Below are positions 9,322 to 14,828 of a stretch of DNA of 26,297 bases, one piece after another. The position numbers were made by a program, and so were the translations under genes. Source of the DNA: a virus; the IMG/VR virus record IMGVR_UViG_3300032246_000475, positions 1-26,297 of that record; one strand, 5' to 3'. The notes beneath the pieces are model-generated. The model did not search any database. It saw only the letters and a program-made list of their open reading frames with translations, and was not told the origin of the DNA. Every line of letters starts with the position of its first letter. Position 1 is the first letter of the stretch.

Positions 9322-9457
9322 TAAACACACCGTCCCAACTGGCAAGAATATCTGCCGCGTCTCTAGTCCGCTTCTCTACTGGTTCAACTTTTATCTCTGC
9401 AATTTTCTTTGCAGTATCTATCACCGCAACCCAACTCACTTCTACATTCTCACTCAT
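9314..9457 (-). CDS. Small hypothetical protein
   Basis: This 47-aa frame has an ATG overlapping the upstream stop (ATGA) and GAGGGG upstream. It is helical and charged, contains AKKIAEIKVEPVEKRTRDAA and has no cysteine. No family is recognised. Confidence 0.6.
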   Translation of the reverse strand: MSENVEVSWVAVIDTAKKIAEIKVEPVEKRTRDAADILASWDGVFNA

Positions 9458-9597
9458 ACTACTATCCCCTCGTCCTTGTTGTGTTGTATAGCCATATCCA
9501 TAAAGCAGTCATCGCATACAGGTTTTGAATTGAACGCATTCTCCCAATCGCCGTTCGGTATTTCCCACCCGCAATACTGACATATTCTTTTAGCCAT
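9454..9597 (-). CDS. Zinc-ribbon microprotein
   Basis: This 47-aa protein has two clean knuckles, Cys6-x2-Cys9 (ICQYCG) and Cys28-x2-Cys31 (VCDDC), 18 residues apart: a minimal zinc ribbon. GGGAG lies 7 nt upstream of the ATG. The start overlaps the upstream stop by 8 nt (ATGGCTAA). Confidence 0.75.
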   Translation of the reverse strand: MAKRICQYCGWEIPNGDWENAFNSKPVCDDCFMDMAIQHNKDEGIVV

Positions 9598-9676
9598 TCT
9601 TAAACTCCCGTCCGTGTTCACATTCATTCATAGGGTATAAGCAATCTCCACATATTGCAACTGTATTCTCACTCAT
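9590..9676 (-). CDS. 28-aa zinc-knuckle microprotein
   Basis: This very short frame contains Cys9-x2-Cys12, Cys19 and His21, enough for one zinc site. Both ends overlap neighbours by 8 nt (ATGAGTGA at the start, ATGGCTAA at the end). Its size makes chance a concern; the coupling and Cys pattern are the support. Confidence 0.55.
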   Translation of the reverse strand: MSENTVAICGDCLYPMNECEHGREFKNG

Positions 9677-9806
9677 AATTGCAATCCCTATCTATGTCTC
9701 CACAATCAGGGCATACAAACATATAGCAACCCTCTTCGTGTCCAGGTATATCGCAGTCAAGCCATATCCTATCGCTTAGGCAATCTTTAACTATAAGTCT
9801 GCTCAC
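9669..9806 (-). CDS. Zinc-ribbon-like microprotein
   Basis: A 45-aa frame has a GTG start overlapping the upstream stop (GTGA), with GGGGG 5 nt before it. Cysteines at 9, 18, 27, 32, 35 and 42, including FVCPDCG, suggest a zinc ribbon. The function is unknown. Confidence 0.65.
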   Translation of the reverse strand: MSRLIVKDCLSDRIWLDCDIPGHEEGCYMFVCPDCGDIDRDCNYE

Positions 9807-9958
9807 TTGTTCCCCCAATAACACTTAGTTAATTCTCCCCAACAATATCCTTCGCCATTACCCACCCACCATAGATGATTAGTGATATAGAATAAGGCTA
9901 CGATTCCAAGCCCCGTAAGAATTCCCAGGACATACCACCCACGATTAGTTAGTTTCAT
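9803..9958 (-). CDS. Small membrane protein with Trp/Cys-rich tail
   Basis: This 51-aa protein has one membrane helix (about residues 8-28, WYVLGILTGLGIVALFYI) and a Trp- and Gly-rich tail with Cys39 and Cys46. GGAG lies 9 nt before the ATG, and the gene overlaps the previous one by 14 nt. Function unknown. Confidence 0.65.
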   Translation of the reverse strand: MKLTNRGWYVLGILTGLGIVALFYITNHLWWVGNGEGYCWGELTKCYWGNK

Positions 9959-10169
9959 TAGCCAACTCTCCTTCGCATTCGTTTAGTAAGTCTCTAATCT
10001 GCTCGTTAATGTCATACTCACTGATACCACCTTCGTCAAAAATCTTGACGGCTTTAGCCCACGTCCCAGCGGGACGCTCTGAATATGAACTGTCCCACCA
10101 TAACGCCATAATCTCATCGTCAGGGTTGTAATCATTCGTGAATATCTGAACTAAATCTTTAGCCTTCAT
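9945..10169 (-). CDS. Hypothetical acidic protein
   Basis: This 74-aa protein starts at an ATG sharing one base with the upstream stop (TAATG). It is acidic and lacks cysteine clusters. Phrases such as DEIMALWWDSS and YDINEQIRDLLNECE suggest a small alpha/beta domain with a terminal helix. No family is recognised. Confidence 0.7.
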   Translation of the reverse strand: MKAKDLVQIFTNDYNPDDEIMALWWDSSYSERPAGTWAKAVKIFDEGGISEYDINEQIRDLLNECEGELANETN

Positions 10170-10471
10170 TACGCATTCACCAACTCACTTGCAACTGCAC
10201 GGCGCACTAGATTCTGGTGCTTGCTAGTGGTAACGCTGAACTTTTGCGCCACTACATACCAACCTTCGGCAGAATGCCACGCAATCGGCGTGCGATAACT
10301 TAACACCACGTAATCTATTGACTCTTTAACCTTCTCATATTGTGCAACTTCTTCACTATCTAACCGCCCATAACTATTCGTGCGTCCGTCTAAGCCTTCT
10401 AGTGCTGACGCTCTAAAGTCTAAACGATTAGTGATGTAATATTCTGCGTCTCTCTGATTTACTTGCTTCAT
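10169..10471 (-). CDS. Hypothetical protein
   Basis: This 100-aa protein is the first gene of the segment served by the promoter module at 10534-10596. A strong AGGAG lies 8 nt before the ATG. It is mixed in composition, contains GWYVVAQKFSVTTSKHQN near the C-terminus and has no membrane segment. No family is recognised. Confidence 0.75.
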   Translation of the reverse strand: MKQVNQRDAEYYITNRLDFRASALEGLDGRTNSYGRLDSEEVAQYEKVKESIDYVVLSYRTPIAWHSAEGWYVVAQKFSVTTSKHQNLVRRAVASELVNA

Positions 10472-10533
10472 TCTTTTATCTCCTAGTTTTATTTATTGCC
10501 GATAATGCGCGGGCTTTCCGCACTCTATCTTGT

Positions 10534-10596
10534 GTCCTAATCGTGTCGCGAACACGCGCCCTCTGTCAAGAGTTTAGGACTATGACTTGCGTCATA
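10534..10596 (-). promoter_or_regulatory. Promoter module A: CRP-like operator, -35/-10, inverted repeats
   Basis: On the minus strand a 16-bp palindrome, TATGACGCAAGTCATA (10596-10581), is followed after 11 bp by TTGACA (10569-10564). A weak -10, CACGAT, lies at 18-bp spacing (10545-10540). The same DNA holds 7-bp outer arms GTCCTAA/TTAGGAC (10534-10540, 10574-10580) and two inner hairpins (CTCT/AGAG and CGTGT/ACACG). The ATG is 69 nt beyond the -10, with a further small hairpin (10507-10523) in the leader. Confidence 0.65.
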
Positions 10597-10597
10597 T

Positions 10598-10729
10598 CTA
10601 ATCAACGTTCGTATCGTAACTAATTCCACACTCCTTACAATTAAATACTGCCATTCTTCCCGCCCCGTAAGGCTCTATCGTTACCTTTATCGGGCTATCA
10701 CAATCTGCACACATCATCGGTTGACCCAT
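10598..10729 (-). CDS. Zinc-ribbon microprotein
   Basis: This 43-aa protein has Cys7-x2-Cys10 (MCADC) and Cys31-x2-Cys34 (NCKECG), a clean minimal zinc ribbon. GGGG precedes the ATG by 6 nt. The stop lies 2 bp from operator A. Confidence 0.75.
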   Translation of the reverse strand: MGQPMMCADCDSPIKVTIEPYGAGRMAVFNCKECGISYDTNVD

Positions 10730-10732
10730 TAT

Positions 10733-10897
10733 TCACCCCACTCTCATCACTTGCGGATGTCCTAGTAATCTTCTCACTTGCGCTAACTGGTCTAGTCTCC
10801 CCTGGTAGTAGTTGCGGTCATTCTCTCCCGTGCTAGTGGTCAATCTATCTAACACCCATTCCGCCTCTACGTTTAGGAATTGCTCTAACTCTTTCAT
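10733..10897 (-). CDS. Small hypothetical helical protein
   Basis: A 54-aa protein starts at an ATG overlapping the upstream stop (ATGA) with AGGGAG just before. It is helical and charged, with no cysteine; LEQFLNVEAEWVLDRL and QLAQVRRLLG suggest two helices. No family is recognised. Confidence 0.65.
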   Translation of the reverse strand: MKELEQFLNVEAEWVLDRLTTSTGENDRNYYQGRLDQLAQVRRLLGHPQVMRVG

Positions 10898-10971
10898 TCT
10901 TCTCCCTCTTTAATGGTCATTAGTTCATTCTCTTCATCGTGTTCATATCCGCATTCATCGCACATATCCAT
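10894..10971 (-). CDS. 25-aa CxxC microprotein
   Basis: This tiny acidic frame carries Cys4-x2-Cys7 and His11 (MCDECGYEH). The start shares one base with the upstream stop (TAATG), and the stop overlaps the next start (ATGA). Coupling at both ends is the main support. Confidence 0.5.
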   Translation of the reverse strand: MDMCDECGYEHDEENELMTIKEGEE

Positions 10972-11081
10972 TATTCCACCTCGCAATCGTGTCCATATGC
11001 CCACTCTTGCGCGTCCATATCATCTAGCAAGTCAAACACTCTAGAGCATTCCACGCACTTAGCCTTAGTCATTATCTTCAT
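10971..11081 (-). CDS. Zinc-knuckle microprotein
   Basis: A 36-aa frame has Cys9-x2-Cys12 (KCVECS) and His31-x-Cys33, a plausible single zinc site. Both ends share one base with neighbouring genes (TAATG). Confidence 0.62.
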   Translation of the reverse strand: MKIMTKAKCVECSRVFDLLDDMDAQEWAYGHDCEVE

Positions 11082-11212
11082 TATCCTATTCTCCATTCCG
11101 TTTTAGAAGTAAAGTCTCTCCCGCAAGTGTCGCATATCTCTTGCCCGTCGTGGTATCGGTGTTCGCATATGAGACACCCATTCTGGCAATCTCCTAAGTG
11201 TAAAGTAGTCAT
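11081..11212 (-). CDS. Zinc-ribbon microprotein
   Basis: A 43-aa protein has Cys9, Cys13 and Cys16 (QNGCLICEH), and Cys27-x2-Cys30 (ICDTCGRDF), a typical ribbon with an extra cysteine. Both ends share one base with neighbours (TAATG). Confidence 0.72.
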   Translation of the reverse strand: MTTLHLGDCQNGCLICEHRYHDGQEICDTCGRDFTSKTEWRIG

Positions 11213-11523
11213 TACGCCACCTCTTCTAACTCTAGTTCCACGTCCTCTATCGCTTGATTGAATAAGTCGGTGTAATAAAGGTAAAGGTCTAGGCTCATTA
11301 AGCCGATAATCGTAACCTCTCCCATATGTCCTAATTCTGCAGACCCTCTATCGTCATATTCTCCTGGCATATCTTGCCATTCCTTGATTATCTGGTTATT
11401 GTAAACTGGTAGGTAACCGTCCACCCATTCGCCAGAATTATCTTTAATCTCTTCTAACTCTAACCCTTTACCTAGTTCGGTTTTAATCTCTTCTATCATC
11501 TGGTTAATCACTGCTTGATTCAT
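11212..11523 (-). CDS. Hypothetical acidic protein
   Basis: A 103-aa protein is the first gene after promoter module B. AGGAG lies 9 nt before the ATG. It is strongly acidic with helical ends; the middle contains GEWVDGYLPVYNNQ and GEVTIIGLMSLDLYLYY. No family is recognised and no catalytic motif is evident. Confidence 0.72.
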   Translation of the reverse strand: MNQAVINQMIEEIKTELGKGLELEEIKDNSGEWVDGYLPVYNNQIIKEWQDMPGEYDDRGSAELGHMGEVTIIGLMSLDLYLYYTDLFNQAIEDVELELEEVA

Positions 11524-11577
11524 ATACCTAGTCTCCTAATCTAGTTACTGCAAGGCGTGGCAATCTGCCCGCCTAGT

Positions 11578-11637
11578 GCCTTAGTGTGCCGTGAACACTC
11601 GCTCTCTTCAAGAGGCTAAGGCGTGAATTACATCACT
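11578..11637 (-). promoter_or_regulatory. Promoter module B: CRP-like operator, -35/-10, inverted repeats
   Basis: The minus-strand order matches module A. The palindrome AGTGATGTAATTCACG (11637-11622) is followed by a 10-bp gap and TTGAAG (11611-11606). After 17 bp comes CACACT (11588-11583). Outer arms GCCTTAG/CTAAGGC (11578-11584, 11616-11622) enclose CTCT/AGAG and AGTGT/ACACT hairpins. The operator lies 2 bp past the stop of the upstream gene. The leader to the ATG is about 60 nt. Confidence 0.65.
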
Positions 11638-11639
11638 AA

Positions 11640-11741
11640 CTATCCCTTGCACTTGTGGTTGAAATAACCGTCATCCGTTTTCCATTCGCGTTTACAATCG
11701 GCGCAATATCCGCCCTGCTTAATCTTGATTCGTCTAGCCAT
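11640..11741 (-). CDS. 33-aa C2HC zinc-knuckle microprotein
   Basis: This basic frame contains Cys13-x2-Cys16 (YCADCKREW), His29 and Cys31. The start shares one base with the upstream stop (TAATG). The basic N-terminus (MARRIKIK) suggests possible nucleic-acid contact. Confidence 0.6.
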   Translation of the reverse strand: MARRIKIKQGGYCADCKREWKTDDGYFNHKCKG

Positions 11742-12004
11742 TACGCCACCACCTTAAAGCCTTTAAAGATAGCGTCCGATTCCCGATAAGGCTCGTGTGG
11801 TAGTCGCCCGTCTCTCTTTATTGTGCGTTCCGCCATAGCGAGAGCGTCCGCCTTGCTTGTGCCGTAGTAGGTAGATTCACTCTCTACGCCGTCTACTAGG
11901 GCATTCACTTGCCACCCCTTGCCATAGCCGTATCGGGCTAGATTAGTCGCGTGTAGTTGCATATCCTTGCCTTTCATTCGTCTTACAAGGTAGACATTCG
12001 CCAC
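11741..12004 (-). CDS. Hypothetical protein
   Basis: An 87-aa protein is read from a GTG at 12004 behind GGGGG (6 nt). The next in-frame ATG is at codon 10. It is basic and contains a beta-rich N-terminus, GWQVNALVDGVE and a helix SKADALAMAERTIKRDG. No family is recognised. Its ribosome site lies inside the 3' arm of a strong GC hairpin. Confidence 0.68.
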   Translation of the reverse strand: MANVYLVRRMKGKDMQLHATNLARYGYGKGWQVNALVDGVESESTYYGTSKADALAMAERTIKRDGRLPHEPYRESDAIFKGFKVVA

Positions 12005-12009
12005 CTAGT

Positions 12010-12051
12010 GCCCCCGTCGGATTATGAACCCGTAGCCCGTAGCGCGGGGGC
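12010..12051 (-). promoter_or_regulatory. GC hairpin covering the ribosome site of the next gene
   Basis: Arms GCCCCCG and CGGGGGC are perfect 7-bp complements (12010-12016, 12045-12051) around 28 nt. In the minus-strand mRNA the 3' arm is the only SD-like sequence for the GTG at 12004. It could gate translation or act as an attenuator. No T-run follows. Confidence 0.5.
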
Positions 12052-12059
12052 GGTGTTAC

Positions 12060-12254
12060 TTAGGCTAGTTTAGCCTCAATCTCTTCTGCCAGTTTAACTG
12101 ACCAGAAGTTAACGCCAGATGACTTCCACCATTCCATAGCATTTTTTAAGAATTCTGCCTGCTCTTGATTCAATTCTAGGGTTGCTACGGTTGCGTTTTT
12201 CTTAGCCTCATATTGGGCGATGAGGCGGTTAGATTCTGCGTGCATTGTGTCCAT
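12060..12254 (-). CDS. Hypothetical helical protein
   Basis: A 64-aa protein starts at ATG 12254, with a second in-frame ATG three codons later; AAAGG lies 8 nt upstream. It is mostly helical, with NQEQAEFLKNAMEWWKSS and a terminal KLAEEIEAKLA. It is the first gene of the minus-strand cluster, 43 nt after a good promoter. No family is recognised. Confidence 0.68.
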   Translation of the reverse strand: MDTMHAESNRLIAQYEAKKNATVATLELNQEQAEFLKNAMEWWKSSGVNFWSVKLAEEIEAKLA

Positions 12255-12296
12255 TCGGTGAGCCTTTCGGTTAGTGTGGTTTAACTTACAATCAGA

Positions 12297-12351
12297 AGAT
12301 TACACGCTCACTTACGCCGTGTCAAGTATATTTTGTGTGATTTACATCACA
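12297..12351 (-). promoter_or_regulatory. Promoter module C: sigma-70 promoter with CRP-like operator
   Basis: TTGACA (12325-12320) and TAATCT (12302-12297) are separated by 17 bp, the best promoter in the window. Ten bp upstream of the -35 is TGTGATGTAAATCACA (12351-12336), a full match to the TGTGA-N6-TCACA CRP consensus. ACACG/CGTGT arms lie in the spacer. It drives the first part of the minus-strand cluster. Confidence 0.75.
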
Positions 12352-12359
12352 TAGTTACC

Positions 12360-12373
12360 CGAACACTTGTTCG
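12360..12373. promoter_or_regulatory. LexA-like SOS box
   Basis: CGAAC-ACTT-GTTCG is a perfect palindrome matching the core of the mycobacterial-type LexA consensus TCGAAC-N4-GTTCGA; only the outermost T and A differ. It lies 8 bp upstream of the CRP-like site of promoter C, so DNA damage could control the minus-strand cluster. Confidence 0.6.
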
Positions 12374-12577
12374 CATATATAGACCGTAACTCTTCCCCGA
12401 TATTCCATATAATTATATTGCATATAACGAATTCAATTATGCGGGGGAAATAACGGGGGGGAGGAAAGTGAAGGGGAGATAGTCGCATAGCATAAGTTTA
12501 ATTAAGTAACACTTATGTTGCGTAATTCGTTTATTATGTTACCTACGGGTAACTTATTATTATATATACCTACACAA

Positions 12578-12639
12578 TAAGGTTAGACATTAGTTAGGTA
12601 AGTGTCTAAGTCTAAAGGTCTACCTTAAGGTTAGACATT
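12578..12639. repeat. TTAGAC/GTCTAA iteron cluster
   Basis: TAAGGTTAGACATT occurs twice as a perfect 14-bp direct repeat (12578-12591, 12626-12639). Between them lie inverted copies of the core: GTCTAA at 12604-12609 and 12610-12615, and GTCTAC at 12618-12623. Such clusters are typical of initiator or repressor binding sites. Confidence 0.6.
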
Positions 12640-12840
12640 CTGACCCAGGGTTGTTAAACTAGGAGCCATACATTACTGTTACTCTTACCCTATAATTTTC
12701 TGTTATATAGCCCCTATATACCTTCTGACCAGGACTTTTGCCCCAGAGGGCAACTATTATAAATTATTTTAAATATAAGTGTTCGGTTTACCCGTTTCCA
12801 ACGGGTTATCTATATATGTAATATAAAATATATTATTATA

Positions 12841-12879
12841 GAGCGAGCATCGCTCTTCGGCTCGCTCGCTTATATAGTA
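12841..12879. repeat. GC hairpin with two competing folds in AT-rich DNA
   Basis: GAGCGAGC (12841-12848) pairs with GCTCGCTC (12860-12867). Alternatively GAGCGA (12841-12846) pairs with TCGCTC (12850-12855), so the two folds exclude each other. CTTATATAGTA follows at 12869, as it does after the hairpin at 1624-1636. Confidence 0.55.
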
Positions 12880-12959
12880 GTTTTATAATTTAATTATATA
12901 TAGCCACAGTTATGCCGTTAGGCAGGAACCGTTTATAGACCGATTATTAGGGACAACTG

Positions 12960-14828
12960 ATGGGTAGAAAACCTGGGATTCAAAACATCCCAAAGGGCGA
13001 AGCCCAAGAGAAAGTTCTGATTCAATTAGGACAAGGTTCTACCATTACTGCCGCTATGGCAGCCGTTGGACGAAATGATGTAACCTTCCGCCAATGGTCA
13101 ATGAATGACCCTGAGTTTAAAGAACGTGCTGACAAAGCCCGCCTTCAAGGCAAAGGGGTCATAGCAGACCTAGGTGATTTAAAGAATATCTCCTATCCTG
13201 ACTTCTCAGAACAGTTCCTAGATACCACGCTCTTTCCACACCAACTAAACTGGTTGGACTTAATTGAGGGCAAAGAGCCAAGATGGCAACCTAGCGGTAT
13301 GACTTATGAGCCAGGTGACCCAAAACGTATTTTGATTAACGTGCCACCTGAGCACGCCAAGTCCACAACTATTACAACCAACTATGTCCTCTATAACATA
13401 GTTACCAATCCTAACTCTAGAGTAATCATTGTCTCTAAGACTCAGGGTATGGCAAGAAAATTCCTTGGTGCGATTAAGACTCGTCTTAGCCACCCAGCCT
13501 ATATCAAACTCCAGACCGCATTTGGTCCTAATGGCGGATACAAGGCTGATGCAACTCAATGGTCAGCCGATATGATTTATCTAGGCACAGGTCGTGATTC
13601 TGGCGAAAAAGACCCAACGGTCCAAGCCCTAGGATTTGGTTCCCAAATCTACGGTGCTCGCGCTGACTTGATTGTTCTAGACGATGTTGTGATGAACTCA
13701 AATGCCCACGAGTGGGAGAAGCAAATTGAATGGCTTCAAAAAGAAGTTATCACGCGCTTAGGGCGACACGGAAAACTGCTTATAGTAGGAACCCGTGTCG
13801 CGCCTATTGACCTTTATAAAATGATTAGGGACGGCGGACAATGGACAGGTGGTAAGACACCTTTCACCTACTGCGCTATGCCAGCGGTTCTAGAATTTGA
13901 TGAGAACCCTGACAACTGGAAAACGCTCTGGTCTAGAACCAACATCCAAGAAAATGATATTGACGAAAAAGGCGAAGATGGCTTATACCCAAAATGGGAT
14001 GGACCCTCACTCTTTAAGAGAAGGTCTGAAGTTGCTCCGTCAGTCTGGGCTATGGTCTACCAACAAGAAGATGTTGTTGAGAACTCAATCTTCTCACCCA
14101 CTTGTATTGCAGGTAGCGTCAACGGAATGCGTAAACGAGGACCTCTCAAACCTGGGGTTCCAGGACATCCAAAAACCGCAGACCAACTCTACACTGTTAT
14201 CGGACTTGACCCTGCTATGGCTGGGGCAACGGGAGCAGTAGTAGTAAGTTATAACAAGTCTGATGGCAAGATATATGTTTTAGATTGTATCAATATGACT
14301 GACCCTTCTCCAGCCAAAATTCAAAATCTTATTGAAGACTGGGTTGAACGTTACAAGCCCCAAGAAATACGAATTGAAATCAATGCTCACCAGAAGGCTT
14401 ATGCCCTAGACGATGAGTTAAGAAACTATTTGGCTTCTCGCGGTTGCCAACTAAACTCACACTTCACTGGTAAAAATAAATGGGATGTTGGTTTTGGTGT
14501 AGCATCTATGGCTGCATTATTTGGTAACACTAGAGATGGTCGTTTCCAAGATAACAACTTAATTGAATTACCTAGTAATGAAGGCTCCGAAGGTCTTAAG
14601 ACACTAGTGCAAGAATTAATTACTTGGAAACCTGATACTAAGAACCCTACAGACTGCGTTATGGCTTTATGGTTTGCCGTCATCAGAGTGCGAGAATTGA
14701 TGCAACAGAGAACCAAAGTTAGTGGATATGCTTCAAACCGTTGGGCGACAAGAGCACAGATGAACCAACGTATGACCGTAAATTTAGATGATGCTTTCGC
14801 CGAACAATGGGCGCAACAATACAGTTAG
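12960..14828 (+). CDS. terL: Terminase large subunit
   Basis: This 622-aa protein is the DNA-packaging motor. The ATPase domain has a variant Walker A, PPEHAKST (residues 129-136), and Walker B LIVLDD (237-242). The C-terminal RNase H-like nuclease has GLDPAMAG (Asp417), a RIEINAHQ strand (Glu473) and NPTDCVMALW (Asp565). The first 65 residues look like a helix-turn-helix (ITAAMAAVGRNDVTFRQW), as in small terminase subunits. No separate small terminase is seen, so that function may be fused here. AGGG lies 7 nt before the ATG. It opens the late operon. Confidence 0.93.
   Translation: MGRKPGIQNIPKGEAQEKVLIQLGQGSTITAAMAAVGRNDVTFRQWSMNDPEFKERADKARLQGKGVIADLGDLKNISYPDFSEQFLDTTLFPHQLNWLDLIEGKEPRWQPSGMTYEPGDPKRILINVPPEHAKSTTITTNYVLYNIVTNPNSRVIIVSKTQGMARKFLGAIKTRLSHPAYIKLQTAFGPNGGYKADATQWSADMIYLGTGRDSGEKDPTVQALGFGSQIYGARADLIVLDDVVMNSNAHEWEKQIEWLQKEVITRLGRHGKLLIVGTRVAPIDLYKMIRDGGQWTGGKTPFTYCAMPAVLEFDENPDNWKTLWSRTNIQENDIDEKGEDGLYPKWDGPSLFKRRSEVAPSVWAMVYQQEDVVENSIFSPTCIAGSVNGMRKRGPLKPGVPGHPKTADQLYTVIGLDPAMAGATGAVVVSYNKSDGKIYVLDCINMTDPSPAKIQNLIEDWVERYKPQEIRIEINAHQKAYALDDELRNYLASRGCQLNSHFTGKNKWDVGFGVASMAALFGNTRDGRFQDNNLIELPSNEGSEGLKTLVQELITWKPDTKNPTDCVMALWFAVIRVRELMQQRTKVSGYASNRWATRAQMNQRMTVNLDDAFAEQWAQQYS

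Follow-up and report, generated by a model that had tools for sequence, protein, structure and literature searches.

A 26.3-kb virus record of IMG/VR (IMGVR_UViG_3300032246_000475, positions 1 to 26,297; this whole stretch of 26,297 nucleotides is hereafter the window) carries three 16-bp palindromes resembling the site of the cyclic AMP (cAMP) receptor protein CRP, and two of them adjoin a three-way junction of 47-49 nt that appears to act as a structured RNA between genes. We put at roughly 0.7 the probability that these boxes serve CRP-type activation and that the junction is a functional intercistronic RNA. A first-pass annotation had reported such palindromes, at a distance of 10-11 bp upstream of a minus-strand TTGAxx -35 hexamer, at 10581-10596, 11622-11637 and 12336-12351, the last being a full consensus match; the sites, the distances and the 10/10 match are all there. 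It was largely right on CRP. What it missed is the more unusual part, an RNA element joined to sites A and B, together with a box-less copy of that element at 12008-12051. What it called three repeated promoter modules are better described as two composites of promoter and RNA (A and B) and one plain promoter (C), alongside one copy that is RNA only. The boxes and the plain promoter are as follows:

12336-12351, no strand assigned: CRP box C, TGTGATTTACATCACA, 10/10 to consensus, a perfect TGTGA-N6-TCACA with positional homologues in relatives
11622-11637, no strand assigned: CRP box B, CGTGAATTACATCACT, 8/10, with the GTGA/TCAC core kept
10581-10596, no strand assigned: CRP box A, TATGACTTGCGTCATA, 8/10, with symmetric divergence
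12297-12325, minus strand: predicted promoter C, read from the sequence, with -35 TTGACA at 12320-12325, a 17-bp spacer and -10 TAATCT at 12297-12302

Box C is the only perfect box in the window. The -35 hexamers lying 10 or 11 bp from the boxes are TTGACA for C, TTGAAG for B and TTGACA for A, and predicted starts near 12290, 11576 and 10533 fit the -35/-10 anatomy, on a reading of the sequence only. A further palindrome, GAACAAGTGTTC, lies just past box C at 12360-12371, on the side away from the -35 of that box.

The window encodes a terminase, a portal protein, a DnaB-like helicase, a primase, a sigma factor and WhiB. Its terminase is 82% identical to those of the isolates OX376640 and OX376641 (deposited as Caudovirales sp. 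ct2KA10), and the next matches are Streptomyces phages at 44-46% identity. OX376641 is named LanE43-AprF5, which the accessible text of Kavagutti et al. (PMC10202952) describes as Planktophila phage F5; the closest named phages have 'Ca. Planktophila', a common lake bacterium, as their host, F5 (host strain LanE-43) among them. Judged by these protein matches, we take the window for a piece of a freshwater actinophage genome of Planktophila-phage type. F5, the nearest isolate, also has boxes and one boxed junction. We gathered 80 relatives via the terminase from a longer match list, which with F5 and the window gave 82 sources; a terminase scan of genome contigs returned no match.

The boxes are strikingly concentrated in these sources. 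Within 6 kb upstream of the terminase (276.8 kb) we counted 56 distinct perfect boxes, where a uniform 45% G+C composition predicts 0.31; the remaining 735.5 kb held none, where it predicts 0.82. The palindromes are thus conserved in related phages, a check that the first-pass annotation had suggested, and the relatives' copies that match A and B in position and structure have perfect or 9/10 boxes. A TTGACA-like hexamer (at least 5/6) lies within 45 nt of 33 of the 56 perfect boxes. The distance from box to -35 is phased: among boxes with at most one mismatch and an exact TTGACA, the gap outside junctions is 0, 10-11, 20-21 or 30-32 bp (n=22), near multiples of 10.5 bp, and inside junctions it is always 11 bp (n=10). 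It is difficult to see how insertions and deletions would keep to one helical face unless there were contact between proteins. With such spacings in the relatives, the earlier doubt over operators centred near -53 can be dropped. In our reading of these patterns the boxes are real regulatory sites, and activation from one face of the DNA is favoured over repression.

Three side observations concern boxes in particular relatives. Seven of the 23 perfect boxes without TTGACA have AAATGGT a few nucleotides on, possibly another -35-like element (L017, L019, L028, L033 and L081, at -1535, -705, -637, -1474, -616, -702 and -745 from the terminase). A subgroup (L048, L051, L052, L064, L067, L071, L072, L077 and L079) has a perfect box near -241 from the terminase, adjoining an AGTACT-type hairpin, and no junction occurs in those of its members for which 2.5 kb or more of upstream sequence is available. 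A more distantly related phage, Streptomyces phage Immanuel3 (L082), carries a perfect box, TGTGACCTGCATCACA, and a one-mismatch box (304-319 and 359-374) upstream of its annotated terminase, and no three-way junction.

Searching with the cyclic-nucleotide (cNMP)-binding domain PF00027, the only profile used, we found no match in the window, where the first-pass annotation had likewise seen no CRP gene, or in 36 phage relatives including F5, and on this basis we rejected a phage-encoded CRP. A cNMP-binding protein was present in five of nine actinobacterial metagenome-assembled genomes (MAGs) reached via WhiB, and in all 23 genomes of one streamlined freshwater actinobacterial genus (that of G001), which may not be the host of F5. 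The closest PDB match of the actinobacterial MAG Crp is M. tuberculosis Crp, with an identical VGASRETVNKALADFA recognition helix; the open reading frame (ORF) beside the MAG crp gene is presumably endonuclease-III-like. The annotation had proposed that host cAMP-CRP, or a phage relative of it, controls the three segments coordinately. Its core survives, since the boxes are conserved and phased and no phage PF00027 protein was found: a CRP-type regulator, most simply the host's, would coordinate the segments. It overlooked the RNA structure overlapping A and B. Binding and activation by host CRP are what we infer from the boxes, their conservation, their phasing and the lack of a phage cNMP-binding protein.

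Past the box, A, B and their homologues have a 7-bp closing stem with co-varying halves and two inner hairpins. This three-way junction consists of P1 (7 bp), P2 (about 4 bp) and P3 (3-5 bp, with a GTTCRNGAC-like loop), followed by a conserved AC. On both strands a loose stem descriptor returned chance folds by the hundred, and a stricter one still picked up unrelated folds, so covariance models were used instead. Model R1 was built from eight copies (alignment A2) with a structure that we supplied, to which its alignments lean; model R2 was built from the 62 matches of R1 (alignment A4). A first MAFFT alignment (A1, 29 copies) had P1 misaligned and was not used. The copies in the window, each followed by a hairpin, P4, are the following:

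12008-12051, minus strand: box-less three-way junction, from P1 to the conserved AC (R1 19.4 bits, E 0.57; R2 38.6 bits, E 4.2e-5), which folds as predicted
11985-12009, minus strand: predicted P4 hairpin after the box-less junction, from a fold; a longer stretch folds differently here
11576-11622, minus strand: boxed junction B (R2 52.4 bits, E 4.2e-8)
Within junction B, minus strand: predicted promoter, with TTGAAG at 11606-11611 in P2, a weak -10 CACACT at 11583-11588 in P3/P1 and the conserved AC at 11576-11577 as predicted start
11547-11577, minus strand: predicted P4 hairpin after junction B, from a fold
10532-10580, minus strand: boxed junction A (R1 70 bits, being in the R1 seed; R2 62.5 bits, E 2.5e-10)
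Within junction A, minus strand: predicted promoter, with TTGACA at 10564-10569 in P2, CACGAT at 10540-10545 as -10 and the conserved AC at 10532-10533 as predicted start
10501-10529, minus strand: predicted P4 hairpin after junction A, from two folds

Across the 82 sources, R1 at E<=1 gave 62 matches, all on the minus strand; at E<=10, over 81 sources, it gave 69, including a single plus-strand match (E 3.3) that the tighter limit removed. With R2 at E<=0.1 (82 sources), all 70 matches were on the minus strand, including the third window copy, and all lie 0.9-2.6 kb upstream of the terminase, with one to four copies per junction-bearing locus. Of the 44 loci whose upstream sequence spans 2.5 kb or more, 31 have the junction. 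No junction was found in 296 bacterial genomes, a search with stricter filters and no positive control that says little.

The helices are borne out by covariation. Standard pairs fill 93.7% of the pair cells of 53 distinct copies (71.2% when shuffled), two-sided changes occur in 13 of 15 pairs, and covariation scores 0.602, compared with 0.186 after shuffling and no more than 0.166 after sliding, in alignments that were fitted by the model and lean to its structure. A second set of 40 further contigs, fetched via a pattern spanning P3 and half of P1, yielded 73 matches with a score of 0.500 against 0.140; in the 28 distinct copies lacking the fetching pattern, pairing was present in 385 of 400 cells. 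About half of the copies leave the outermost P3 pair unformed, which makes this pair doubtful. Without it, G.U counts are 42 in the first set and 31 in the second, A.C counts 3 and 5 (minus strand), an excess of G.U on the transcribed strand that argues for RNA. The sequences thus show the structure, through covariation, as well as its strand and placement, and these features suggest the function that we propose below.

Boxed and box-less forms of the junction can be told apart clearly. From 143 matches we kept the 124 distinct copies flanked on either side by 60 nt and dropped 19. A box of at least 8/10 sits on 43 of them, flush with the junction in 42 and shifted by one base in the other; at random positions such boxes number 47 in 25,600. 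TTGACA (at least 5/6) is found in P2 of 37 of the 43 boxed copies and of 7 of the 81 box-less ones. In 35 of the 37 boxed copies with a good -35, a -10 of the form NANNNT follows 16-19 bp downstream, nearly always at 17 or 18, while 5 of the 81 box-less copies have NANNNT at 17-18 from the same place. The AC that is conserved behind P1 lies 5-8 nt past the -10, at the expected start position. These -10 hexamers are poor: they read NANNNT, and the first T is mostly absent. Upstream of the box-less copies, a stop codon closing a frame that stays open for 40 codons or more lies 5-9 nt away in 66 of 81. In the window, the stop at 12060 is followed by the junction from 12051 (8 nt), the stop at 11640 by box B and the stop at 10598 by box A. 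The existence of both forms indicates that promoter and RNA are separable layers.

Past the AC comes the P4 hairpin (mean z -3.07; 91% of the 124 copies below -1.5), then a mostly unpaired ribosome-binding site (mean 0.855 over 108 scored copies) and a small gene. We considered P4 as a translational switch and disfavour it, the ribosome-binding site being mostly free. In the 11 pairs of related phages examined, the junction with its flanks is often the sole conserved part while the neighbouring genes differ, which suggests that the junction also marks cassette boundaries. In one comparison (L041 at 1063-1775 and L045 at 1078-1427, in nucleotides from the terminase), a block including the junction differs and one alignment break falls at the junction 3' end, a pattern that would fit gain or loss of a cassette at this point.

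We propose that a CRP/GlxR-type activator, most simply the host's, switches on a leftward small-gene operon from a main promoter at box C, and that internal promoters at boxes B and A drive sub-operons. In the read-through RNA the junction would act as an intercistronic punctuation mark, some copies of which double as CRP-activated promoters. Most likely it would be a processing or recognition site, giving the next gene an mRNA that starts at P4. In the boxed copies, -35 and -10 would be written into P2 and P3, with the AC at the junction end as the predicted start. The coincidence of predicted start and junction end suggests that initiation and possible cleavage give the same 5' end, so that mRNAs from the promoter and, if cleavage occurs, mRNAs from read-through would begin alike.

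Several observations weigh against this account. In the window, there are 6 boxes with at most two mismatches whereas shuffled sequence yields 13.7, A and B alone are not significant and box A has diverged from the consensus, so that the case for the boxes depends on the relatives. Among the 44 loci with enough upstream sequence (2.5 kb or more), 14 lack a perfect box and 13 lack the junction, and 23 of the 56 perfect boxes have no TTGACA-like hexamer nearby. The Rayleigh p of the gap phasing, 2e-9, is nominal only, as the relatives are homologous and not independent. With the outermost P3 pair included, the two sets show 23 and 29 A.C mismatches beside 42 and 31 G.U. Finally, CRP boxes are not enriched in three Crp-bearing actinobacterial MAGs, which may not be Planktophila: perfect sites number 1, 0 and 0, and core sites 8, 17 and 20 against 15, 39 and 35 for the reversed pattern.

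The shortfall of boxes in the window would favour chance palindromes in an AT-rich region. From the window alone one would not reject this, yet for the family it is refuted by the 56 boxes against 0.31 expected in relatives, by the phasing and by the flush fusion to junctions, and we consider it vanishingly improbable. The lack of enrichment in the three MAGs, together with our having sought only PF00027 in the phages, leaves room for another regulator that reads the boxes within the same architecture, either an unrecognised phage protein or a host factor with TGTGA specificity. We regard this as unlikely, as the consensus and its central TA fit the Crp and GlxR consensus and Crp is present, with an identical recognition helix, in 23/23 genomes of one freshwater actinobacterial genus. 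CRP might also repress these promoters, for example by keeping the small-gene operon down when host cAMP is high. In coliphage T1, cAMP-CRP represses the pir, dam and recE promoters (accessible text of PMC6737242), and a repressor upstream of the -35 is possible, though the boxes never overlap the -10 or the start. One-turn spacing steps reaching 32 bp from the -35 and the poor -10 hexamers suit an activator instead, and repression appears very unlikely to us.

As for the junction, cleavage at its base is possible, at somewhat less than even odds, and about equally likely is that the element binds a phage or host protein, or that it is a roadblock to a 5' exonuclease and so protects the mRNA, with no cleavage at the base. 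The conserved GTTCRNGAC-like P3 loop, the conserved bases on both sides of P1 and the stable hairpins at the mRNA 5' end would suit binding or protection; we identified no candidate protein, and the coincidence of predicted start and junction end is better explained by end formation. The junction could instead work as DNA, either as a folded single-strand recombination site or as a homology block for cassette swapping, with no RNA role. This would account for its often being the sole conserved stretch between related phages and for alignments that in some cases break at its ends. Against it stand the co-orientation of all matches with the genes, the fixed place between stop codon and ribosome-binding site, P4, the free ribosome-binding site and the tolerance of G.U; moreover, shared intergenic sequence suffices for cassette exchange by homologous recombination. 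Integron attC sites have an invariant RYYYAAC/GTTRRRY core at the base of the stem. This core is absent from the junction, whose inner P1 pairs are free to vary (for each of pairs 4-7, 13-33 of the 53 distinct rows show two-sided changes), and we therefore rejected attC and deem a DNA-only role distinctly unlikely. The functional intercistronic RNA thus remains our preferred reading. More tentatively still, it may represent a new phage RNA class, a 47-49-nt three-way junction plus hairpin that punctuates freshwater actinophage mRNA, in which some copies evolved a CRP-activated promoter within their stems, so that initiation and processing would give the same 5' end and host cAMP would choose between them.

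The genes around these elements are small:

12060-12254, minus strand: 64-amino-acid (aa) ORF, the first small gene past promoter C
11741-11963, minus strand: small gene after the box-less junction, with ATG at 11963 and a longer GTG reading from 12004
11640-11741, minus strand: 33-aa zinc-ribbon-like mini-ORF, ending immediately before box B
11212-11523, minus strand: 103-aa ORF, the first gene past module B
10598-10729, minus strand: 43-aa zinc-ribbon-like mini-ORF, ending immediately before box A
10169-10471, minus strand: 100-aa ORF, the first gene past module A

More broadly, 9400-11250 on the minus strand holds a series of tiny ORFs (25-60 aa), several with the paired CxxC motifs of zinc-ribbon-like mini-proteins. 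The non-coding stretch before the terminase contains two exact copies of TAAGGTTAGACATT, 48 bp apart (12578-12639).

If our account is right, a promoter set wired to cAMP-CRP would tie infection to the energy state of the host. A promoter overlapping a covarying RNA would place two codes on one 49-nt stretch, with P2 and P3 co-varying to keep pairing while -35 and -10 are held. Since F5 carries the same elements, the LanE-43/F5 pair offers a direct testing ground.

The junction RNA family is so far without a name. In the open-licence literature, judged by title and the start of the abstract, we recognised no report of CRP boxes in Planktophila-type phages or of this junction RNA, and no Rfam family matched the junction at its cut-off. 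Scanning 9500-13000 of the window gave one unrelated sub-threshold match; on six loci, Rfam gave sub-cut-off matches to RF02926 and Mu-gpT-DE, one flavivirus stem-loop that also stayed below threshold, and one tRNA at another place. The Mu-gpT-DE match covered little beyond a ribosome-binding site and was dropped. RF02926 (DUF2693-FD, reportedly defined by Weinberg in 2017) is the nearest in form: it has 49 nt, a 7-bp closing stem and two inner hairpins, and an AGCGAGA P3 loop that recurs in a subset of junctions, most of which have GTTCRNGAC-like P3 loops instead. Its model matched 4 of 14 records at E<=1, each on the junction, at 17.6-27.3 bits and none at the cut-off of 44.5; one junction copy aligns to it over the full length, 1-49, with the same three helices. 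Conversely, R2 found no match in 41 contigs with RF02926-like P3, over half of which fold with a 7-bp P1. Given the sub-cut-off scores and the 0/41 R2 matches, we did not file the junction under RF02926. The weak likeness nevertheless hints at a wider spread of small intercistronic junction RNAs in phages. Many RF02926-like junctions in prophage-like contigs (L212, L215, L218, L220-L223, L225, L228-L231 and others) share a TTGATTRGTTCTTTGA motif downstream.

In polycistronic RNA, punctuation by tRNAs is a known arrangement, and the junction resembles a tRNA in its 7-bp stem, a T-arm-like 7-nt loop one base away, a short D-arm-like hairpin and its intergenic placement. It differs in having no anticodon arm or CCA and an extra A between P3 and P1. 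ARAGORN found no tRNA gene in the window and the Rfam tRNA model matched only an unrelated place in the six loci; with no model match and no anticodon arm, we rejected the junction as a tRNA. Phage T7 has RNase III processing sites between its early genes. Like these, the junction is a structured RNA between genes of a polycistron, possibly setting mRNA ends, but its shape and sequence are different, some junctions contain a promoter and cleavage is here only proposed.

On the side of the boxes, the closest parallels are actinobacterial CRP/GlxR promoters, those of M. tuberculosis Crp (Rv3676) and C. glutamicum GlxR. The phage boxes share their consensus, given as TGTGAN6TCACA in the accessible text of PMC4117774, and their upstream position, which in M. 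tuberculosis is linked to activation (same text). They differ from these promoters in being phage-borne, unusually near-perfect and several per operon, and two of the three window sites adjoin an RNA structure that contains a promoter. As in the available account of coliphage T1, CRP would act on phage promoters and tie phage development to host metabolism; unlike in T1, where repression decides lysis, the phasing here suggests activation of a small-gene operon.

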